DNA of 34,374 nt. It comes from Patescibacteria group bacterium. GTDB taxonomy: Bacteria > Patescibacteriota > Patescibacteriia > Patescibacteriales > UBA12465. A program made the translations under genes and the position numbers. The stretch is taken from contig JAIPJO010000003.1 of the NCBI GenBank assembly GCA_021734135.1, positions 1 to 34,374 on the forward strand, given 5' to 3'. Each line of letters begins with the position of its first letter. Within the stretch, counting starts at the first letter, position 1. Positions 1,510 through 31,714 of the stretch are shown piece by piece. A model generated the notes under the pieces. That model saw only the letters and a list, made by a program, of their open reading frames with translations. It was not told the origin of the DNA and searched no databases.

Positions 1510-2559
1510 TTAAAGTCCTCTGTCTAATAAAAATAAAATAATACCAATAGCTGCTGTAATAGCTGATATAACCCAAAAACGCATAACAATTTTAGACTCT
1601 GACCAACCTATAGCCTGAAAATGATGATGAATTGGAGTAGAGTGAAATAATTTTCTTTTTTTTATCTTCTTATGAAATACTTGCAAAAGTACTGATAAAG
1701 ATTCAAAAACAAAGAGTAAACCAATAATAGGAAGTAAAATAACATAATTGGTTAACATAGCAATTATAGCTAAAGTAACTCCTAAACTCATAGCACCAGT
1801 ATCACCTAAATAAAAACGAGCAGGGGGAATATTAAACCATAAAAAAGCTAAAAGTCCACCAGTAATTACTCCACAAAAAGCAGCTAAATCATATCTACCT
1901 AAAGCAAAAGCGATAACACCAAAAGCTACATAAGAAGTAATTAAAGTGCCTCCAGCTAAACCATCCAAACCATCACTTTCGTTAACTGAAAAAGAAGTAC
2001 TAATAATTACTAAAATAAAAATAGGTATATACCACCAACCTATTTCAAAATTGCCAAAAAAAGGCACATGAAGCACTGTCCAATCTAATTTAAAATAAAA
2101 CCATAAAGCACCAACTAAAGCAATCACAGTATATATAAATAAACGATGCCCTACAGTAAGTCCACCACCACCTTTTGCCCCCTTACCTCTAACATCTAGC
2201 CAATCATCAACAAGTCCTACTATAGCAGTAGCAATTAAAGCACCAAGGGGCAAAAGAGTTTCACTTCTGGAAAGAAAATTAAGTTTAGTTAAAAATTCTA
2301 AGTTTAAAAAATCCCCCAAGAAACTAAAAAGTATAATTAGAATAAGAAGTGTTAACCAAATTAAAATTCCTCCCATAGTAGGTGTTCCGGCCTTATGGGC
2401 ATGAAGTTTTGAAAATACAGGTGTTTTACCACTATTTCTAATATTTTTACCCAATTTATATTTATATAAATAATGGGTTAAAAGTGGTGTCCATAAAATA
2501 GCAAAAACAAAAGCTAAAGTAGATAAACTAAGAATTTTGGCAATTTGAAATTCTGGCAT
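1510..2559 (-). CDS. mraY: Phospho-N-acetylmuramoyl-pentapeptide transferase
   Basis: Motifs AGTPTMGGILI, VDDWLDVR, NESDGLDGLAGG, LGDTGAMSLG, HHHFQAIGWSESKIVMRFW. Confidence 0.93.
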   Translation of the reverse strand: MPEFQIAKILSLSTLAFVFAILWTPLLTHYLYKYKLGKNIRNSGKTPVFSKLHAHKAGTPTMGGILIWLTLLILIILFSFLGDFLNLEFLTKLNFLSRSETLLPLGALIATAIVGLVDDWLDVRGKGAKGGGGLTVGHRLFIYTVIALVGALWFYFKLDWTVLHVPFFGNFEIGWWYIPIFILVIISTSFSVNESDGLDGLAGGTLITSYVAFGVIAFALGRYDLAAFCGVITGGLLAFLWFNIPPARFYLGDTGAMSLGVTLAIIAMLTNYVILLPIIGLLFVFESLSVLLQVFHKKIKKRKLFHSTPIHHHFQAIGWSESKIVMRFWVISAITAAIGIILFLLDRGL

Positions 2560-2560
2560 A

Positions 2561-2956
2561 TTAGAAAAAATTAACTAAATAAAGACTCAAAAGACTAAAA
2601 AAAGCAATTATATTAACAGCTAAAGAGCTTATTGGTAGCAAATGACTTAAAAAGTGAAAATGTTTTTTTCTAAAAAAACTAATAGTAAGCAGAGTATTAA
2701 AAATAAAAACAGCTAAAGCAATAAATCCTAAAATAAAGATTTCATAAGGATGACCAACTTTATCAATACCAAAAACTACATTATAGTGTAAAACCATTAA
2801 ATCTGAACTAATATTTTTATATAAATACCAAGCAAAAACAAATATTAAAATTAAGAATAACAAATTAATTATAGTATAAATACGCAAATGTTTATCATTA
2901 AAAATTCTTTTAAAAAACCACAAATAACGTCTTAATGCGATCAATATTTTTTGCAT
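2561..2956 (-). CDS. Small membrane protein of unknown function, head of the mraY-ftsW-murG run
   Basis: 131 aa ORF, about three hydrophobic segments, 1 nt from mraY. Confidence 0.6.
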   Translation of the reverse strand: MQKILIALRRYLWFFKRIFNDKHLRIYTIINLLFLILIFVFAWYLYKNISSDLMVLHYNVVFGIDKVGHPYEIFILGFIALAVFIFNTLLTISFFRKKHFHFLSHLLPISSLAVNIIAFFSLLSLYLVNFF

Positions 2957-3027: not shown

Positions 3028-3041
3028 AATAATGTTATAAT
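3013..3041 (+). promoter_or_regulatory. Predicted sigma70-type promoter with extended -10; expected transcription start at or next to the ATG
   Basis: TTTCCA (3013-3018), 17 nt spacer, TGTTATAAT with TATAAT at 3036-3041; ATG at 3048. Confidence 0.6.
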
Positions 3042-3047
3042 AATATT

Positions 3048-4139
3048 ATGAAATTAAACTTTATTAGCAAACTAATAAATTATGGGCTCTGGCAAGGTGC
3101 TAGTAGTCTTTATATTGAATTGAGCTCTGAAGGTTTAGAAGTAGATTATCATGAAGTTAACGCAGACGACCTACTACTTCCACAAAGGGCTAGCAATAAA
3201 TTCATAACTGAGTTAAACTCACTAACTAACGCTCAAAAATTAGAATCTGGCGCTAATATTTCTTTTAAATTACAAACACCAATTAATACTCGCAATGTTT
3301 ACTTAACTAGTGTTGCTGGTGAAAATCATAAATACCTATTGCAAGTAATTGAACCAGAAAGCACAGCCTGGAAACTATCAAATTTAGGTATGGATTCAAA
3401 TATTTTAAGAAATATTAAACAACACTTAAAGACAGAAAAAACTAAAGGTCTTATTACTATTTCCTCTAAAAATAAAGATGATAAAGAAAAAACTTTATCA
3501 GCTTTTATTCATGAATTAAATAAATTAAATATAGATATATTAAGTATAGGAAAACTTGATAAAAATATTATTTATCTTGATGAAAACCAAAATTGGTTAA
3601 AAAATATTGATGAACATGATTTAATTAGTCTTTTAAATAAACACAGTGAAAATGTTGTAATTACTAATAGTGAAAATGAAAATATCATTAAAGCCTTAAT
3701 AAAATATAGTTTAAATAGTGATAAACTAATAATTTTAAGCATAAATAGCGAAAGTTCACATGATGCTTACAGTAAATTACAAGAAAAAATTAATGATAAA
3801 GGATTAAGTAAGAATATAAATTTTATATTACACCAAGAGTCTTTTAAACATCTATGCCCTCATTGTTTAGATAAAGCTGAACATAGCTCTTATGAAAAAA
3901 AATCTTTAGATGATTTATCCTCTCATTATAATTTAGGAGATATAAAAAATAATTCTTATACTAGTAGTGGTTGTGATAAATGTAATTATAAATCATATAA
4001 TGGTAATGTTTTAGCCTTTGAAGTACTATCTTTTAAATACCCCCACCTTAACACAGCCTCAATAATAGATGATGCCTATAAAAAACAAAACTTAGGTATA
4101 ATCTCTGCTAATGATTTGCTAAGAATAAGTAATATATGA
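3048..4139 (+). CDS. Degenerate GspE/PilB-like (T2SS/T4P) ATPase, predicted pseudo-ATPase
   Basis: Collinear with GspE/PilB: ASSLYIELSSEGLEVDYH (ASDIHIEP region), LGM linker, GLITISSKNKDDKEKTLSAFIHELNKLNIDILSIG (Walker A region), LISLLNKHSENVVITNSEN (Walker B region), KLIILSINSESS (His box region), CPHC...GCDKC zinc motif, FEVLSF. Confidence 0.72.
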   Translation: MKLNFISKLINYGLWQGASSLYIELSSEGLEVDYHEVNADDLLLPQRASNKFITELNSLTNAQKLESGANISFKLQTPINTRNVYLTSVAGENHKYLLQVIEPESTAWKLSNLGMDSNILRNIKQHLKTEKTKGLITISSKNKDDKEKTLSAFIHELNKLNIDILSIGKLDKNIIYLDENQNWLKNIDEHDLISLLNKHSENVVITNSENENIIKALIKYSLNSDKLIILSINSESSHDAYSKLQEKINDKGLSKNINFILHQESFKHLCPHCLDKAEHSSYEKKSLDDLSSHYNLGDIKNNSYTSSGCDKCNYKSYNGNVLAFEVLSFKYPHLNTASIIDDAYKKQNLGIISANDLLRISNI

Positions 4140-4799: not shown

Positions 4800-5141
4800 A
4801 TGTGGCAACAAACAATAGCTTTAATTTTAATTCTAATCTTCATTTTCAGATTAACACTGTTAAAAAAGAAAGGTAAAGTTCAAAATAATGAATATATTTT
4901 TTGGATGATATTCTGGTCCCTAGCTGCTTTAGCAATGTTATTTTTAAAACAATTAGATACCTTATTAATTGATCTTGGTTTTTCAGGTAGTGGTATTAAT
5001 TTTTTACTTTATTTAGCAATACTCTTTCTTTTCTATTTAATTTTTAGATTAAGATTAAAAATATTGAATCTAGACACAAAAATAACTAAATTATTACGAG
5101 AAATAGCCTTAAAAGATAGTGATAATAATACAGAAAAATAA
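4800..5141 (+). CDS. DUF2304-like small membrane protein
   Basis: 113 aa, three hydrophobic segments, immediately follows a GT2 gene as DUF2304 proteins commonly do. Confidence 0.65.
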   Translation: MWQQTIALILILIFIFRLTLLKKKGKVQNNEYIFWMIFWSLAALAMLFLKQLDTLLIDLGFSGSGINFLLYLAILFLFYLIFRLRLKILNLDTKITKLLREIALKDSDNNTEK

Positions 5142-5143
5142 AT

Positions 5144-6292
5144 ATGAAAATAGCTCAAATTGTCTGCTCCTTCCCTCCTTATAAAGGTGGAATAGGTAAT
5201 AGTGCTAAAGGTCTAGCAAAACTTCTCAGCCCAGAAATAGATATACATACTTTTACTACTGAGAAGCTTAAAGATGATAAAAAACATAATAAAAATAATT
5301 TACATAAAGACAAGTTTAAAGCTGAAAATACTAATGTCTTTTATTTAAAACCATTATTAAAGCTTGGCCAAGCTGCTATCTTACCAAGTCTTTTTTTTAA
5401 ATTAAAAAAATACGACGCTATTATTTTACACTACCCTTTTTTCGGTACTAATGAGATATTATATCTATATAGATTATTTAATAAAAAACAAAAACTTTAC
5501 ATCTATTATCACATGGATGTACAAGCTTTAAATCCTCTATATAAAATACTAAGCCTACCTGGACATATTTGTGGTAAAGCCCTAATAAAACAAGCTGATA
5601 AAGTTATTGTTTCTAGTCTTGATTATCTACAAAATTCACAAATTAAAAAATTATACCAAAAAGAAGTCCAAAAATATAAAGCCATTAGTTTTCATATAAA
5701 TGAAGATTATTATCACAAAGATTTCACAATAAAGGATAAAAATAATATACAACTTCTTTTTGTAGGAGGACTTGATAAAGCTCACTATTTCAAAGGTGTG
5801 GAAAATTTAATTAAAGCAACTGCTAAAATAAAACAAAAAAATTGGACTTTAAATATAGTTGGCAATGGTGAGCTATTAAATAAATACAAAAAGCTTGTTT
5901 TTAAACTTAATTTAAACAAAAATATTAATTTTTTAAATAATGTAGATGATAAAGAATTAAAAAAAATATATGAAAAAGCAGATATAATAATACTTCCCTC
6001 TTTTAATAAAAATGAAGCTTTTGGCCTTGTTTTAATTGAAGCCATGGCTAATTCTACAGCTGTAATTGCTAGCAACCTTAAAGGTGTTAGTCAGGTATTT
6101 AACGATGATTGTGGTTTAAAAGTTATTCCTGGTAGTATAATAGATTTAAAAAATAAAATAGAAAGTATAATCAATAAACCTACACTTATTCAAAACTTTA
6201 AAAAAGAAGCTTTCTATTTAGCTCAAGAAAAATATTTAGATAAACACATTAAAGAAAAATGGCTGAATATTTTAAAAACAGATGACAAATAA
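5144..6292 (+). CDS. GT4-family glycosyltransferase
   Basis: FPPYKGGIGNSAKGLAKLL N-terminus; LLFVGGLDKAHYFKGVENLIKA; EAFGLVLIEAMANSTAVIASNLKG. Confidence 0.88.
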   Translation: MKIAQIVCSFPPYKGGIGNSAKGLAKLLSPEIDIHTFTTEKLKDDKKHNKNNLHKDKFKAENTNVFYLKPLLKLGQAAILPSLFFKLKKYDAIILHYPFFGTNEILYLYRLFNKKQKLYIYYHMDVQALNPLYKILSLPGHICGKALIKQADKVIVSSLDYLQNSQIKKLYQKEVQKYKAISFHINEDYYHKDFTIKDKNNIQLLFVGGLDKAHYFKGVENLIKATAKIKQKNWTLNIVGNGELLNKYKKLVFKLNLNKNINFLNNVDDKELKKIYEKADIIILPSFNKNEAFGLVLIEAMANSTAVIASNLKGVSQVFNDDCGLKVIPGSIIDLKNKIESIINKPTLIQNFKKEAFYLAQEKYLDKHIKEKWLNILKTDDK

Positions 6293-6298
6293 TTATTT

Positions 6299-7483
6299 AT
6301 GAAAATAGCCTTAATTAACAATCTCTATCACAATCAAAAAAGAGGTGGAGCAGAAATAATTATAGAAAAATTAAAACACGCCCTTGAAGAAAAAGGACAT
6401 GATTGTTTTGTTATCTCCACTGCCCCCAAAAAGATTATAGAAAATAAAATAAATAATAATCAAAGAAAAAAAGAAGAAAAAGATATATCTAAAAATAATG
6501 ATTATTTGATAAATTCAATATACTATAATCTACATAAATTCCCTTATATAATCAGATTACTATGGCACTTATATAAACAAATAGAAAATAGGTCAGTTAA
6601 TAAAATAAAGAGTGTACTTAAACATGAAAAACCAGATTTAATTATTAGTCATAATCTTACAGGTTTTAGTATTAAAATATATAAACTTATTGAAGACTTA
6701 AATATTTCTCATATCCATTATTTACACGACATACAAATGCTTCATCCCTCAGGTAGGATGATATATGAAAAAGAAAATATAATTAATTCCTTTTTTGCAC
6801 GTCTTTATCAAAAAATACAAAAAAAATATAGTCAAAAAGTTGACTTAATTGTTTCTCCCTCCAAATGGTTATTAAAAATACATCAAGATAAAGGCTTTTT
6901 TAAAAATACAAAAGTTTGGCAAAAATTTAATCCTATTGAAAACATTAACATTAAAAATATAAATAAAAACTCTAAATCTAATTTCACTTTTATATACATC
7001 GGACAAATCGACAAAGATAAAGGAGTGGAGATTATGATAAAATCATTTCTTAAAACAGCAAATAATAGTGCCAAACTAAGAATAATTGGTGATGGAAAAG
7101 ATTTAAAAACTCTAAAACAAAAATATTATAAACATAAAAATATTATATTTTTAGGTAGACTCTCATATCAAGAGTCTATGCAAAAACTAGCAGAAGCTAA
7201 TACTTTAATTTTACCTTCTTTAATATATGAAAACTCACCTACCGCCCTCTTTGATGCTCTAAAGTTAAATATAGACATTATAGCTACAAATTTAGGTGGT
7301 AACACTGAAATAATTAAAAAATATTATGGACAATTAATTAAGCCTAATAATATCAATGCTTTAAGTAATGCCATCAGTAATTCTCTCAATAGTATTAATT
7401 CTCACAAAAAACCTGTAAATCTAAGTGATTTACAGGTTGATATTTATATACAAGAACTATTAAAGCAATTACATCTTTCTTAA
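6299..7483 (+). CDS. GT4-family glycosyltransferase
   Basis: GGAEIIIEKLKHALEEKGHDCFVI; FIYIGQIDKDKGVEIMI; ENSPTALFDALKLNIDIIATNLGGNTEII. Confidence 0.87.
   Translation: MKIALINNLYHNQKRGGAEIIIEKLKHALEEKGHDCFVISTAPKKIIENKINNNQRKKEEKDISKNNDYLINSIYYNLHKFPYIIRLLWHLYKQIENRSVNKIKSVLKHEKPDLIISHNLTGFSIKIYKLIEDLNISHIHYLHDIQMLHPSGRMIYEKENIINSFFARLYQKIQKKYSQKVDLIVSPSKWLLKIHQDKGFFKNTKVWQKFNPIENINIKNINKNSKSNFTFIYIGQIDKDKGVEIMIKSFLKTANNSAKLRIIGDGKDLKTLKQKYYKHKNIIFLGRLSYQESMQKLAEANTLILPSLIYENSPTALFDALKLNIDIIATNLGGNTEIIKKYYGQLIKPNNINALSNAISNSLNSINSHKKPVNLSDLQVDIYIQELLKQLHLS
7405..7438 (-). terminator. Intrinsic terminator for the minus-strand S8/UXS unit, inside the 3' end of the convergent GT4 ORF
   Basis: 11-bp perfect stem AACCTGTAAAT (7410-7420) / ATTTACAGGTT (7428-7438), 7-nt loop; U-tract only in the minus direction. 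Confidence 0.75.
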
Positions 7484-11940: not shown

Positions 11941-12948
11941 TTATTTAGTTGCAAGTATTGATCTCTTATATGAATCAAGATTCTCTAGTGCTGTACCAGT
12001 ACCTTTAGCCACACAAAGTAAGGCATCATCTGCAATATAGGCTGGCACTCCTGTAGTTCTAGAAAATAATTGATCTATATTTCTCAGTAAGGCACTACCT
12101 CCTGAGATAACTACACCTTTATCCATAATATCAGCTGCTAACTCTGGTGGAGTGTTATTTAAAACTTTCTTAGCTGCGTTTATTATTGCTTCTAATTCAT
12201 TTTGTATAGATTCAGTAATATCATCACTATTTACTGTAATTGACCTTGGTAATCCTGTCATAATATCTCTACCTCTAATTTCCATACTGAGTTTATCCTC
12301 AATAAATAGAGCTGAACCAATATTTATTTTCAGCTCTTCTGCAGTACGTTCACCAATAGCTAAATTATATTTCTTTTTAATAAATTCTAAAATAGACTTA
12401 TCAAACTTATTACCACCCACTCTTACAGAAGCAGAATAAACAACACCACCAAGTGAAATTACTGCCATCTCTGAGGTACCACCACCAATATCAATAATCA
12501 TATGACCAGTAGCTGAACCAATAGGTATATCAGCACCAATAGCTGCTGCTACTGGCTCTTTAATAATATAGGCAGCCTTAGCTCCAGCAGCAATAGTAGC
12601 TTCCACTACTGCTCTTCTTTCAGTAGAAGAAATACCAGCTGGTACTGCTACCATAACTTCTGGTCTAAACAATCTAATGCCACCTAAAGTCTTATTAATA
12701 AAATACCTAATCATAGCTTCAGTTGTACGATAATCAGCAATAACTCCATCTTTTAGAGGTTTTACAGCAATAATTGAGTCCGGTGTACGTCCCAACATAT
12801 CTTTAGCTTCATTGCCAACTGCTAATATTTTTTTATCGTCCACTGACACAGCCACAACAGAGGGCTCGTTAATTACTATACCTCTTTTAGGTAAATATAC
12901 TAAAGTATAAGTTGTGCCTAAATCAATGCCTATTTTTTTTGCAAACAT
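11941..12948 (-). CDS. mreB: MreB-like rod-shape actin homolog (second MreB paralog in window)
   Basis: IGIDLGTTYTLVYLPKRGIVINEPSVVAV, IDIGGGTSEMAVISLGGVV, GVVISGGSALLRNID. Confidence 0.88.
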   Translation of the reverse strand: MFAKKIGIDLGTTYTLVYLPKRGIVINEPSVVAVSVDDKKILAVGNEAKDMLGRTPDSIIAVKPLKDGVIADYRTTEAMIRYFINKTLGGIRLFRPEVMVAVPAGISSTERRAVVEATIAAGAKAAYIIKEPVAAAIGADIPIGSATGHMIIDIGGGTSEMAVISLGGVVYSASVRVGGNKFDKSILEFIKKKYNLAIGERTAEELKINIGSALFIEDKLSMEIRGRDIMTGLPRSITVNSDDITESIQNELEAIINAAKKVLNNTPPELAADIMDKGVVISGGSALLRNIDQLFSRTTGVPAYIADDALLCVAKGTGTALENLDSYKRSILATK

Positions 12949-19427: not shown

Positions 19428-20471
19428 TTAGTTTTCCATATCAGCAGAAGAGACTACCTTTTCTAAAAGTTCAGGATCATCAAGCAATGCCCCAGCACCT
19501 CTAGAAACACAAGTTAAAGGATCATCTACAATGTTAACAGGAATTTTAGTGGCTTGAGCAATAGCTTTATCTAGCCCTCTAAGCATTGAACCACCACCTG
19601 AGATATATATACCTCTTTGATAAATATCAGAAACTAACTCTGGAGGTGTATTTTCTAAAGTATTTTTTATATTATCAATCATTTTACTTACAGTTTTTGA
19701 TATAGCTTCCCTAACTTGATCATCGCTAATATTTATAGCCTTTGGTAAGCCAGTTAAAAGATCTCTACCCCTAACTTCCATAGTCTTAGGTTCCTCTAGT
19801 GGCAAGGCACTACCTATTTCAATCTTTACTTTCTCTGCTAATTGTTCACCAATTAAAATATTAAACTCTTCTCTTATATAATCTACAATATTAGAATCAA
19901 ACTCATTACCAGCTAACCTAAGTGACTTCCAAGTAACCACACCACCTAGTGATATCACAGCTATTTCAGTAGTACCTCCACCAATATCAACCATCATAGT
20001 AGCTGTAGCTTCAGTAACTGGTAATCCTGAACCAATAGCAGCTGCCATAGCTTCATCTATTAAATATACCCTTCTAGCTCCAGCTGACTTAGCAGCATCT
20101 TCCACTGCTTTTTTCTCCACCTCTGTTAAATCAAGAGGAATGCCAATCACAACTCTTGGTCTAGGTATAAGAGTAAAAGTTTCACTATGAACTTTATTAA
20201 TAAAATACTTAAGCATTTTTTCAGTTACTTCAAAGTCAGAAATTACACCATCAATTAATGGTTTAATAGCTTCAATGTGACCAGGGGTTTTTCCTACCAT
20301 TTTTTTAGCTGCTAAACCTACTTCTAGAATTTCAGCTGTTCTATTATTAATAGCTACCACAGAAGGCTCATTAATAATTACCCCTTTATCTTTAACATAA
20401 ACTAAAGTATTTTTAGTACCCAAATCTATTCCTAAATCATTGCTAAATTTTCCCAGTAATTTGTTAAACAT
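19428..20471 (-). CDS. mreB: MreB rod-shape-determining actin homolog
   Basis: LGIDLGTKNTLVYVKDKGVIINEPSVVAIN, VDIGGGTTEIAVISLGGVV, GIYISGGGSMLRGLDK; followed by mreC and mreD. Confidence 0.96.
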   Translation of the reverse strand: MFNKLLGKFSNDLGIDLGTKNTLVYVKDKGVIINEPSVVAINNRTAEILEVGLAAKKMVGKTPGHIEAIKPLIDGVISDFEVTEKMLKYFINKVHSETFTLIPRPRVVIGIPLDLTEVEKKAVEDAAKSAGARRVYLIDEAMAAAIGSGLPVTEATATMMVDIGGGTTEIAVISLGGVVTWKSLRLAGNEFDSNIVDYIREEFNILIGEQLAEKVKIEIGSALPLEEPKTMEVRGRDLLTGLPKAINISDDQVREAISKTVSKMIDNIKNTLENTPPELVSDIYQRGIYISGGGSMLRGLDKAIAQATKIPVNIVDDPLTCVSRGAGALLDDPELLEKVVSSADMEN

Positions 20472-29275: not shown

Positions 29276-30463
29276 TTAATAAAAATTATTTACAGTCATC
29301 ATTTTTACAATTGCGTGTTTATATCTATTTTTAAAAGCTTGATTTAATGATCTTTTTTTATATTTAATTTCAACACCAATTAAACCTTCATTATTTTCTA
29401 AAACCAAATCAATCTCTGACCCCTGTTTACTGCGCCAATAATAACACTTATAATTTTCATCAGAATAACTTAATTGTTTTACAATTTCTGAGATAATAAA
29501 ATTCTCAAAAAGCGCACCCTTGTCTTCACGTAAAGAAAGATTAGAAAAGTTTTCTAAAAGTGCATTTCTTATACCATTATCATAAAAATAAATTTTAGCA
29601 GACTTAGAAATTTCATTTCTTTTATTTTTAGAATATGGATAAAGTCTAAATAAAATATAACTTTGTTCAAATATCTCTATATACCTTCTAATTGTTCTAA
29701 TATCCGCTCCTAGACGAGAAGATAATTCAGAATAATTAATTAAATTTCCAATTTGAGCAGCTAGGACTTTTAATAAATCAGTAGCTAATTTTTTATCTTC
29801 AATTAATTTTAATTCCAATATATCTTTAAAAATGAGGCTATCTACAAAATTTAGTAAATATTTTTTATCATTAGGATTATTAACATTTTGTGGATATTGT
29901 CCATATATTAAAATACTTTCTAATATACTTTCCATATCAAAAAGATAGTTTTTATCTTTCAACTCTTCTTTTAGGGTAACATTTTCTAAAATATTAAAAT
30001 TAAGATCTTGTTCAATATCTTTTTGCACTAAATATTCAGAAAAAGTAAGTGGATGTAGCTTGTAATCTATTTTCCTGCCAGCCAAACTTTCTGAGGTTTT
30101 ATTTTTGATATGAAAAGAAGATGACCCAGTAATTACTAAATCTACATTACTTAATTGATCATATATTATTTTAGCCGCTCTACCAGGATTCGATAATAAA
30201 TGAATTTCATCAATTATTAGCATTTTAGCGTCAGGGCTTATTAAATTCTTATATGATTCTATATCATAAGTTTCTAAAATCTTTCTAACAGGTTCATTAT
30301 CAACTAATAAATAAGTAGCTTTAGGAAATATTTTTTTCACAATAGTTGTTTTACCAACCTGCCTAGAACCAAGTAAAATAAGAATTTGTTTATACTTGGA
30401 AAAGTGTGTTTTTATTTTTTCATCTAAATGTCTATGCATAAAAATATATAACTTTTTTAACAT
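29276..30463 (-). CDS. ATPase with C-terminal DUF4143-like domain (copy B)
   Basis: Walker A LLGSRQVGKTTIVK, Walker B KMLIIDEIHLL, VITGSSSFHIK, C-terminal GSEIDLVLENNEGLIGVEIKYKK. Confidence 0.9.
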   Translation of the reverse strand: MLKKLYIFMHRHLDEKIKTHFSKYKQILILLGSRQVGKTTIVKKIFPKATYLLVDNEPVRKILETYDIESYKNLISPDAKMLIIDEIHLLSNPGRAAKIIYDQLSNVDLVITGSSSFHIKNKTSESLAGRKIDYKLHPLTFSEYLVQKDIEQDLNFNILENVTLKEELKDKNYLFDMESILESILIYGQYPQNVNNPNDKKYLLNFVDSLIFKDILELKLIEDKKLATDLLKVLAAQIGNLINYSELSSRLGADIRTIRRYIEIFEQSYILFRLYPYSKNKRNEISKSAKIYFYDNGIRNALLENFSNLSLREDKGALFENFIISEIVKQLSYSDENYKCYYWRSKQGSEIDLVLENNEGLIGVEIKYKKRSLNQAFKNRYKHAIVKMMTVNNFY

Positions 30464-30544: not shown

Positions 30545-31714
30545 CTAAAATAATTGTAAATTTTTAATTTTAGCCAAATCTTTCCAATTTAAAACTTTAA
30601 CTCCTTTTCTACTTATATTCATATCACCTGCATAAAACAAAAATTCACTTTGTTTTTTGTTATCCTGCAATTCTCTCCAAGAAACTAAGTTTTTAAACAA
30701 TTCACTTCTAATAGTGCTACCTGCTTTAATTTCTATTGCTGTTACATCTTGACCATTATCAATTATTAAATCTACTTTATTAGCGTTACTATCTTGCCAA
30801 AAATAAAAATTAGCTAAATTACCTCTATTATAATCATATTTTATAATATCGCTGACAATAAAATTCTCAAAAATATTACCCTTTAGATAATGGTTAGTTA
30901 ACTCATCTTCTTTTCTTATACCCAAAAGATAAGATAATAATCCAGTGTCATAAAAAAATATTTTAGGACTCTTAATTATTCTCTTATTAAAATTCTTGTA
31001 ATATGGTTGCAATTTAAAGATTATATAACTTGTTTCCAAAATACTAATCCAATTTTCAGCAGTATGATATGAAATTCCACTATCTTCAGCTATAGTTTTA
31101 ATATTTAAAACTTGACCACATCTACCAGCTATTAACTTTAAAAACCTTAAAAATGAACTATAACTTGATATATTCTTTATCATCCTAATATCTCTTTCTA
31201 TATAAGTATTTACATATGACTTATAGAAACTACTAGGACGAATACTTTGATCAAATATTCTAGGATAAAAACCTGTAAAAATAGCTTTATTTAAATTAGA
31301 TATATTTTCTTTAGGTAGCTCTTCCATACTTAAAGGTAGTAAAGTTACAATACCAGTTCTACCTGCTAAAGACTGAGAAATACTTTCCATTAACAAATAA
31401 TTATGAGATCCAGTCAATATAAAAGAACCATTCTTTTTAATATTATCAACATGTGTTTGTAAATAAGAAAAAAACTCAGGTACTCGTTGCACCTCATCTA
31501 TTATAACATTCTTATCATACTCCTTTAAAAAACCTCGTGGGTCATCTTTTACCAATTCTCTAATATCTGGATCTTCAAAAGAAACATATTTATAAGTCTT
31601 AAAGATATCTTGAACTAAGGTGGTTTTACCTGACTGCCTTGGACCTAAAATAGTCACAATTGGAAACTCTTTTTTTAATTGTAGTATTTCTTTAGTTATT
31701 TTTCTTGAAATCAT
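30545..31714 (-). CDS. ATPase with C-terminal DUF4143-like domain (copy A)
   Basis: Walker A ILGPRQSGKTTLVQ, Walker B NVIIDEVQRVPEF, FILTGSHNYLLM, C-terminal NKVDLIIDNGQDVTAIEIKAG. Confidence 0.92.
   Translation of the reverse strand: MISRKITKEILQLKKEFPIVTILGPRQSGKTTLVQDIFKTYKYVSFEDPDIRELVKDDPRGFLKEYDKNVIIDEVQRVPEFFSYLQTHVDNIKKNGSFILTGSHNYLLMESISQSLAGRTGIVTLLPLSMEELPKENISNLNKAIFTGFYPRIFDQSIRPSSFYKSYVNTYIERDIRMIKNISSYSSFLRFLKLIAGRCGQVLNIKTIAEDSGISYHTAENWISILETSYIIFKLQPYYKNFNKRIIKSPKIFFYDTGLLSYLLGIRKEDELTNHYLKGNIFENFIVSDIIKYDYNRGNLANFYFWQDSNANKVDLIIDNGQDVTAIEIKAGSTIRSELFKNLVSWRELQDNKKQSEFLFYAGDMNISRKGVKVLNWKDLAKIKNLQLF

Follow-up and report, generated by a model that had tools for sequence, protein, structure and literature searches.

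A degraded PilB-like gene, most likely derived from the motor of a second type IV pilus, at the head of a glycosyltransferase operon in Patescibacteria

In one family of Patescibacteria, tiny and mostly uncultured bacteria, the gene that marks a second type IV pilus, kept by most relatives in the order, is missing. A PilB-like gene that has lost its catalytic residues stands there ahead of a set of sugar-transferase genes – an arrangement which suggests that a motor has been converted into a helper without motor function. The example described here lies at 3048–4139 of the window (the whole stretch of DNA analysed, 34,374 nucleotides of contig JAIPJO010000003.1). The origin of the degraded gene from pilB2, the motor gene of the second pilus, and the selection acting on it are well supported. 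On balance, we favour the reading that its product is a catalytically dead PilB2 descendant, kept by selection and serving the glycosyltransferase operon as a nucleotide-independent scaffold or regulator. Its molecular role and partner we infer, operon position alone being no proof of a role in glycosylation.

Identity and fold

The locus is made up of the following features, the smTM gene being divergently oriented with respect to the frame of interest and the order of the two last genes being conserved in relatives:

1510–2559, minus strand: mraY, the syntenic anchor
2561–2956, minus strand: smTM, a small membrane protein of 131 residues with no Pfam match, which marks the pilB2 position beside mraY throughout the order
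3048–4139, plus strand: T2SSE/PilB-like pseudo-ATPase of 363 residues with an ATG start (Pfam, phmmer, AlphaFold, Foldseek); N2-type domain at about residues 1–105, RecA-like domain from about 110 to 270 onwards, zinc-type region at 270–312, then C-terminal helices
4136–4798, plus strand: GT2 glycosyltransferase resembling dolichol-phosphate-mannose synthase (Pfam PF00535, E = 2e-23; PDB 5mlz, E = 7e-14)
4800–5141, plus strand: DUF2304 small membrane protein, a partner of the GacJ type (Pfam PF10066, E = 5e-17)
5144–6292, plus strand: putative GT4-like glycosyltransferase (our reading)
6299–7483, plus strand: second putative GT4-like glycosyltransferase (our reading)

A preliminary description of the window, made from the sequence alone, had assigned the frame at 3048–4139 to the GspE/PilB proteins, and its membership of this T2SSE sequence and fold family is confirmed. 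It matches the Pfam T2SSE profile (PF00437) over residues 6–330 with 38.5 bits (cut-off 24.9; E = 7.2e-10), and phmmer against the PDB retrieves EpsE/GspE (1p9r, E = 8e-11, residues 5–327) and Myxococcus PilB (3jc8, E = 9e-6). An AlphaFold2 model built from a 27-row alignment has a pLDDT of 89 and a pTM of 0.73; with this predicted model as query, Foldseek places EpsE, GspE and PilB on top, the best PDB match being EpsE (E = 2.6e-22, TM 0.60). The high rmsd of that match would, in our reading of the model, fit an altered domain orientation. A chance reading frame is excluded, since 363 stop-free codons have a probability of about 6e-16 at the composition of the frame and the gene stands at the same position in 24 other genomes of the family.

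Degeneration of the catalytic motifs

Alignment of intact and degraded copies places the motifs of the window copy as follows, all on the plus strand:

3099–3122, plus strand: ASSLYIEL (residues 18–25), counterpart of ASDIHIEP, without the D and H that are invariant in intact copies
3462–3497, plus strand: degenerate Walker A, SSKNKDDKEKTL (residues 139–150)
3537–3560, plus strand: degenerate Asp box, ILSIGKLD (ILTLEDPVEY in the intact form of this genome)
3639–3683, plus strand: degenerate Walker B region, KHSENVVITNSENEN (residues 198–212; intact form RQDPDIIMVGEIRDEE)
3720–3758, plus strand: degenerate His box, DKLIILSINSESS, which includes SINSESS; the intact TGH reads SDK
3855–3983, plus strand: zinc-type region with both CxxC pairs kept, CPHC at residues 270–273 (3855–3866) and CDKC at residues 309–312 (3972–3983)

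The claim that every catalytic block is degraded stands: Walker A, Asp box, Walker B Glu and His box are all replaced, the position of the catalytic Glu of Walker B (GEIRD) being occupied by Asn. To these losses, as listed earlier, can be added the invariant arginines of the N2 domain, which are also replaced. Judged by its sequence, the pseudo-ATPase lacks what marks a working PilB/GspE motor, namely Walker A, the GEIRD Glu, the Asp and His boxes and the N2 arginines. The earlier motif readings were right apart from two points, the P-loop lysine and the zinc cysteines. Although the Walker A consensus is indeed gone, its lysine position still carries Lys (K146), flanked by Asp in place of Gly and by Glu in place of Ser/Thr. 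The two CxxC pairs form a putative zinc-binding site, and FEVL follows at residues 324–327.

Degraded copies across the family

A contig search with the window protein alone gave no related loci, as the gene is too divergent, and the search was run from the neighbouring GT2 instead. It recovered a recurrent block, ftsW–mraY–smTM facing X–GT2–DUF2304–GT4–GT4, in which X is a degraded T2SSE gene. The spot is readable in 30 family genomes, all comparisons being made on fragmentary drafts, and 25 of them have such a copy at mraY–smTM (in one further genome the contig stops there); the genera g5 (three genomes) and g8 (two genomes) have lost the gene and retained GT2. A comparison by eye of gene loss with the presence of a second pilC gave no clean link. 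The degraded copies, of 254 (contig-cut) to 399 residues, are 18–34% identical to the window protein.

None of the 27 degraded copies compared, the window's included, has the full catalytic set, and the residues lost differ from copy to copy. The preliminary description had named orthologues with an intact Walker A as a sign of mere decay; two of the 27 do retain the consensus, yet they are without Asp box, His box and N2 arginines, and the rest show GK[ST], GR[ST] or none of these. Where intact proteins have the Walker B Glu, many copies carry Asp, a few Glu and the remainder other residues; the N2 arginines are missing singly or together; and the His-box histidine is absent from all but one of the 27. 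Both CxxC pairs are present in 13 copies, including that of the window, and both are absent in the other 14, many of which retain GK/GR[ST], so that the zinc motif is kept, as had been stated, in the window copy but not in the clade as a whole. The TGH histidine, invariant in intact copies, is replaced by Lys in the window and, outside the window pair, by Arg in 83% of the clade, a residue both derived and conserved; at position 226, in the His-box region, most copies of the clade carry a basic residue (R or K).

One candidate, L048 (genome G047, 391 residues), resembles an orthologue in length and was rejected because of its intact motifs, different neighbourhood and isolated place in the tree. 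As a separate observation, the contig of L136 (JALOQQ010000011.1) goes under the title ‘Planctomycetota bacterium’, probably in error, since its genes are ordered as in the window's family.

Likely origin from a second type IV pilus

Elsewhere in the order, in other families, the smTM spot (with mraY where the contig reaches it) holds an intact PilB2 of 575–608 residues, in which the 15 scored catalytic and arginine positions are all present in 11 of 11 proteins. In five loci (L185–L188, L193), PilB2 opens a second type IV pilus locus of the order pilB2–pilC2–...–pilM2–pilN2(–pilO2), the short stretch of L187 covering pilB2–pilC2 only; no smTM was detected beside the PilB2 of L184. In five others (L107, L111, L113, L126, L168), an intact PilB2 heads the same glycosyltransferase operon, with pilO-, pilN- and pilM-like genes running convergently beyond the last glycosyltransferase. 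On L113, Pfam recognizes PilM (E = 6e-41) and, under the cut-off, PilN (0.002) and PilO (0.0003); in the remaining four the pil genes were assigned by similarity and order.

Because its mraY–smTM spot is the one that holds intact PilB2 in other families, the pseudo-ATPase is most likely, from gene order and sequence, the positional orthologue of PilB2. Trees built without the catalytic columns agree with this placement: the 27 degraded copies form a single clade (support 100/98), which is adjoined by two intermediates of 418–421 residues, L135 and L142 (99/99), and in the best tree the degraded copies and intermediates group with PilB2 (100/96). An origin from the genome's own PilB1 is rejected by the AU test (p-AU 0.0008). 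Derivation from the tandem double-T2SSE protein, which is not formally rejected (p-AU 0.117), is disfavoured by the tree and has no positional support. The preliminary description's paralogue of the genome's PilB can hence be refined to a likely orthologue, by position, of PilB2; its remark that the gene does not sit with pilus genes is true of the present arrangement, but the spot is where the ancestral pilB2 of a lost second pilus locus stood.

The loss is shown for pilM2. A search for PilM2 found it in 20 of 24 genomes of the other families of the order (E < 1e-70). Among the 36 genomes of the window's family, 27 of them with a completeness of 90% or more, there is no such match; the best hits, mostly at 1e-20 to 1e-27, are PilM1.

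The intermediates themselves (L142:4662–5927, L135:4150–5406) read GDFNSGRT or GGFDSGRT and GDI.., and lie away from smTM, with an SDR epimerase gene on one side and GT2 on the other. One of their genomes, G049, also has an intact PilB2 elsewhere (L184), which implies a duplication at least there.

The window genome (G000; 730 kb, 87% complete) has three intact T2SSE domains elsewhere, one in a PilB adjoining pilC on contig C49 and two in tandem within a single frame of 1011 residues on C3. Tandem double-T2SSE frames of 1003–1014 residues occur across the order (L089:4652–7687, in G000 C3:16663–19158; also L097, L099 and L101); in G000 the Walker motifs are intact in both halves, which might make the protein a built-in double pilus motor, and in the tree each half, N or C, has a clade of its own.

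Selection on the degraded gene

If the gene were left over from the lost pilus and dispensable, unselected in the window lineage and heading for the loss seen in g5 and g8, one could cite for it the absence from these two genera, the extreme N/K/S/I and AT bias of the window copy (23% GC in the second part of the frame) and its degree of conservation, the lowest in the compared block, with 34% identity to genome G010 against 63–64% for GT2. The codon data speak otherwise. In three close pairs of degraded copies, dN/dS is 0.05 (L144/L129), 0.12 (L147/L150) and 0.09 (L160/L180), within the range of the flanking enzymes, and the last value holds even though the P-loop Lys of that pair has become Ala. 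These YN00 estimates are confined to the closest pairs, more distant ones being saturated, and the window's own lineage has no such value because its nearest copy, L104, is too distant for dS. The window lineage and L104 hold the most eroded copies; they are 34% identical, with five gap residues over 360 codons and an open frame, and differ at first, second and third codon positions by 0.54, 0.38 and 0.62, the second position lying well under the third.

Purifying selection is therefore demonstrated in sister lineages and, for the window lineage, indicated only. No sign of a pseudogene was seen, either as a broken frame in the copies found or as relaxed selection in the sister pairs, and AlphaFold folds the window protein confidently. 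Slow decay thus strikes us as quite unlikely, and the earlier view of a maintained, catalytically dead protein is upheld by synteny, by the single clade, by the mosaic loss of catalytic residues and by the low dN/dS of related copies.

Coupling to the glycosyltransferase operon

The ATG of GT2 overlaps the stop codon of the pseudo-ATPase by four nucleotides (ATGA), as it does in about ten relatives. The distance to GT2 is 23–126 nucleotides for intact and intermediate forms and −4 to +37 for degraded copies, several of which lie 10–37 nucleotides away with no overlap. GT2 and DUF2304 are neighbours in a GacI/GacJ-type arrangement and, on sequence grounds, would be expected to form a polyprenyl-phosphate-sugar synthase. 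GT2 does not strictly depend on the pseudo-ATPase, as g5 and g8 have lost the one and kept the other. A promoter scan did no better than on shuffled sequence (37 found against 33 expected), and a −10-like TATAAT at 3036–3041 is only suggestive as a promoter element.

The overlap could also mean that the frame acts merely as a leader which sets the expression of GT2, its protein scarcely mattering. We consider this very improbable, given the constraint at the amino-acid level, the conservation of fold residues together with the clade-specific basic residue at the TGH histidine, and the copies that stand apart from GT2.

In some relatives, a frame of 144–189 residues lies on the opposite strand between GT2 and DUF2304 (L040:3652–4221, L042:3695–4213, L046:6680–7114, L053:4509–4967, L060:5710–6207, L062:5746–6195).

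Possible role of the dead motor

In the sequence of events that would best account for these data, the ancestor of the family had a second type IV pilus (T4P-2) at the mraY–smTM locus, with pilB2 as its assembly-motor gene. The rest of T4P-2 would have been lost (as shown for pilM2), a loss that, we infer, preceded or drove the change in PilB2. The PilB2 remnant would have shed its N-terminal MshEN-type domain and the residues of the ATP cycle, while the PilB core fold stayed, and would have become the first gene of the GT2–DUF2304–GT4–GT4 operon, often with the four-nucleotide overlap of stop and start. Purifying selection on the pseudo-ATPase implies a function that requires the fold and not ATP hydrolysis. 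The dead PilB2 may act in the cytoplasm, in an apo-like state, as a scaffold or regulator, either for the enzyme that makes the lipid-linked sugar (GT2 and the DUF2304 protein as its partner in the membrane) or for the glycan pathway. More tentatively, the PilB fold might, after pilus loss, have become across the family a dedicated non-catalytic subunit of the GT2–DUF2304 synthase complex, forming a membrane-associated scaffold for glycan assembly.

A different partner is conceivable. The dead PilB2 could bind PilC1, or join or cap hexamers formed by PilB1 or by the tandem T2SSE protein, and so tune the first pilus, T4P-1, its operon position being merely historical; the retained PilB core fold and the presence of both intact proteins in the genome would suit such a role. 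We regard it as unlikely: the Asp box, the His box and the N2 arginines, which act at the subunit and nucleotide interface, are lost, and the coupling of the gene is to GT2 instead of to pil genes. The mixed hexamer proposed in the preliminary description is likewise unsupported, as the residues for coupling between adjacent subunits are gone.

Comparison with known systems

The pseudo-ATPase shares with PilB and GspE (EpsE) the fold, the domain order, two CxxC pairs, the FE motif and the C-terminal helices. It differs from them in lacking a complete Walker A, the Asp box, the Walker B Glu, the His box, the N2 arginines and the N-terminal MshEN-type domain, and in its place in a glycosyltransferase operon. 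With the PilB2 of related Patescibacteria it has in common the position beside smTM–mraY and the grouping in the best tree, whereas those proteins are 575–608 residues long, have all catalytic residues and occur with pilC2 and pilM2N2O2, pilM2 being absent from the window's family. The second locus of Nanosynbacter lyticus TM7x may be likened to PilB2 by analogy only; in Saccharibacteria, a second pilus contributes to host binding (PMC12206443).

For a PilB without ATPase activity, the closest parallel would be Myxococcus xanthus, in which an ATPase-dead Walker A variant promotes exopolysaccharide and the apo form has been proposed as a signalling state (PMC5544727). By analogy, an apo-like PilB might still affect extracellular polysaccharide. 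That variant, however, is a single mutant, engineered from a working motor, and it acts via Dif, whereas the pseudo-ATPase is natural and fixed clade-wide; in the open-access literature, we found no natural clade-wide PilB/GspE pseudo-ATPase. The adjacent GT2 and DUF2304 genes of the window recall GacI/GacJ and WpsA/WpsB, which have this arrangement and make polyprenyl-phosphate sugars, although a T2SSE-type gene is not described as part of those systems (PMC8327497, PMC10821137).

At a traceable locus, the order offers a series from intact motor through intermediates and dead copies with differing residual motifs to loss. This series makes testable what a secretion-motor fold can do without ATP, and whether PilB signalling towards surface sugars, as in the Myxococcus mutants, can become the sole role.

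Other genes in the window

Two MreB-like proteins (our reading) are encoded on the minus strand at 11941–12948 and 19428–20471, with about 7 kb between them, although the genome is very small. Two adjoining genes on the same strand, at 29276–30463 and 30545–31714, encode what we read as AAA-type ATPases with intact P-loops, which resemble paralogues of each other.
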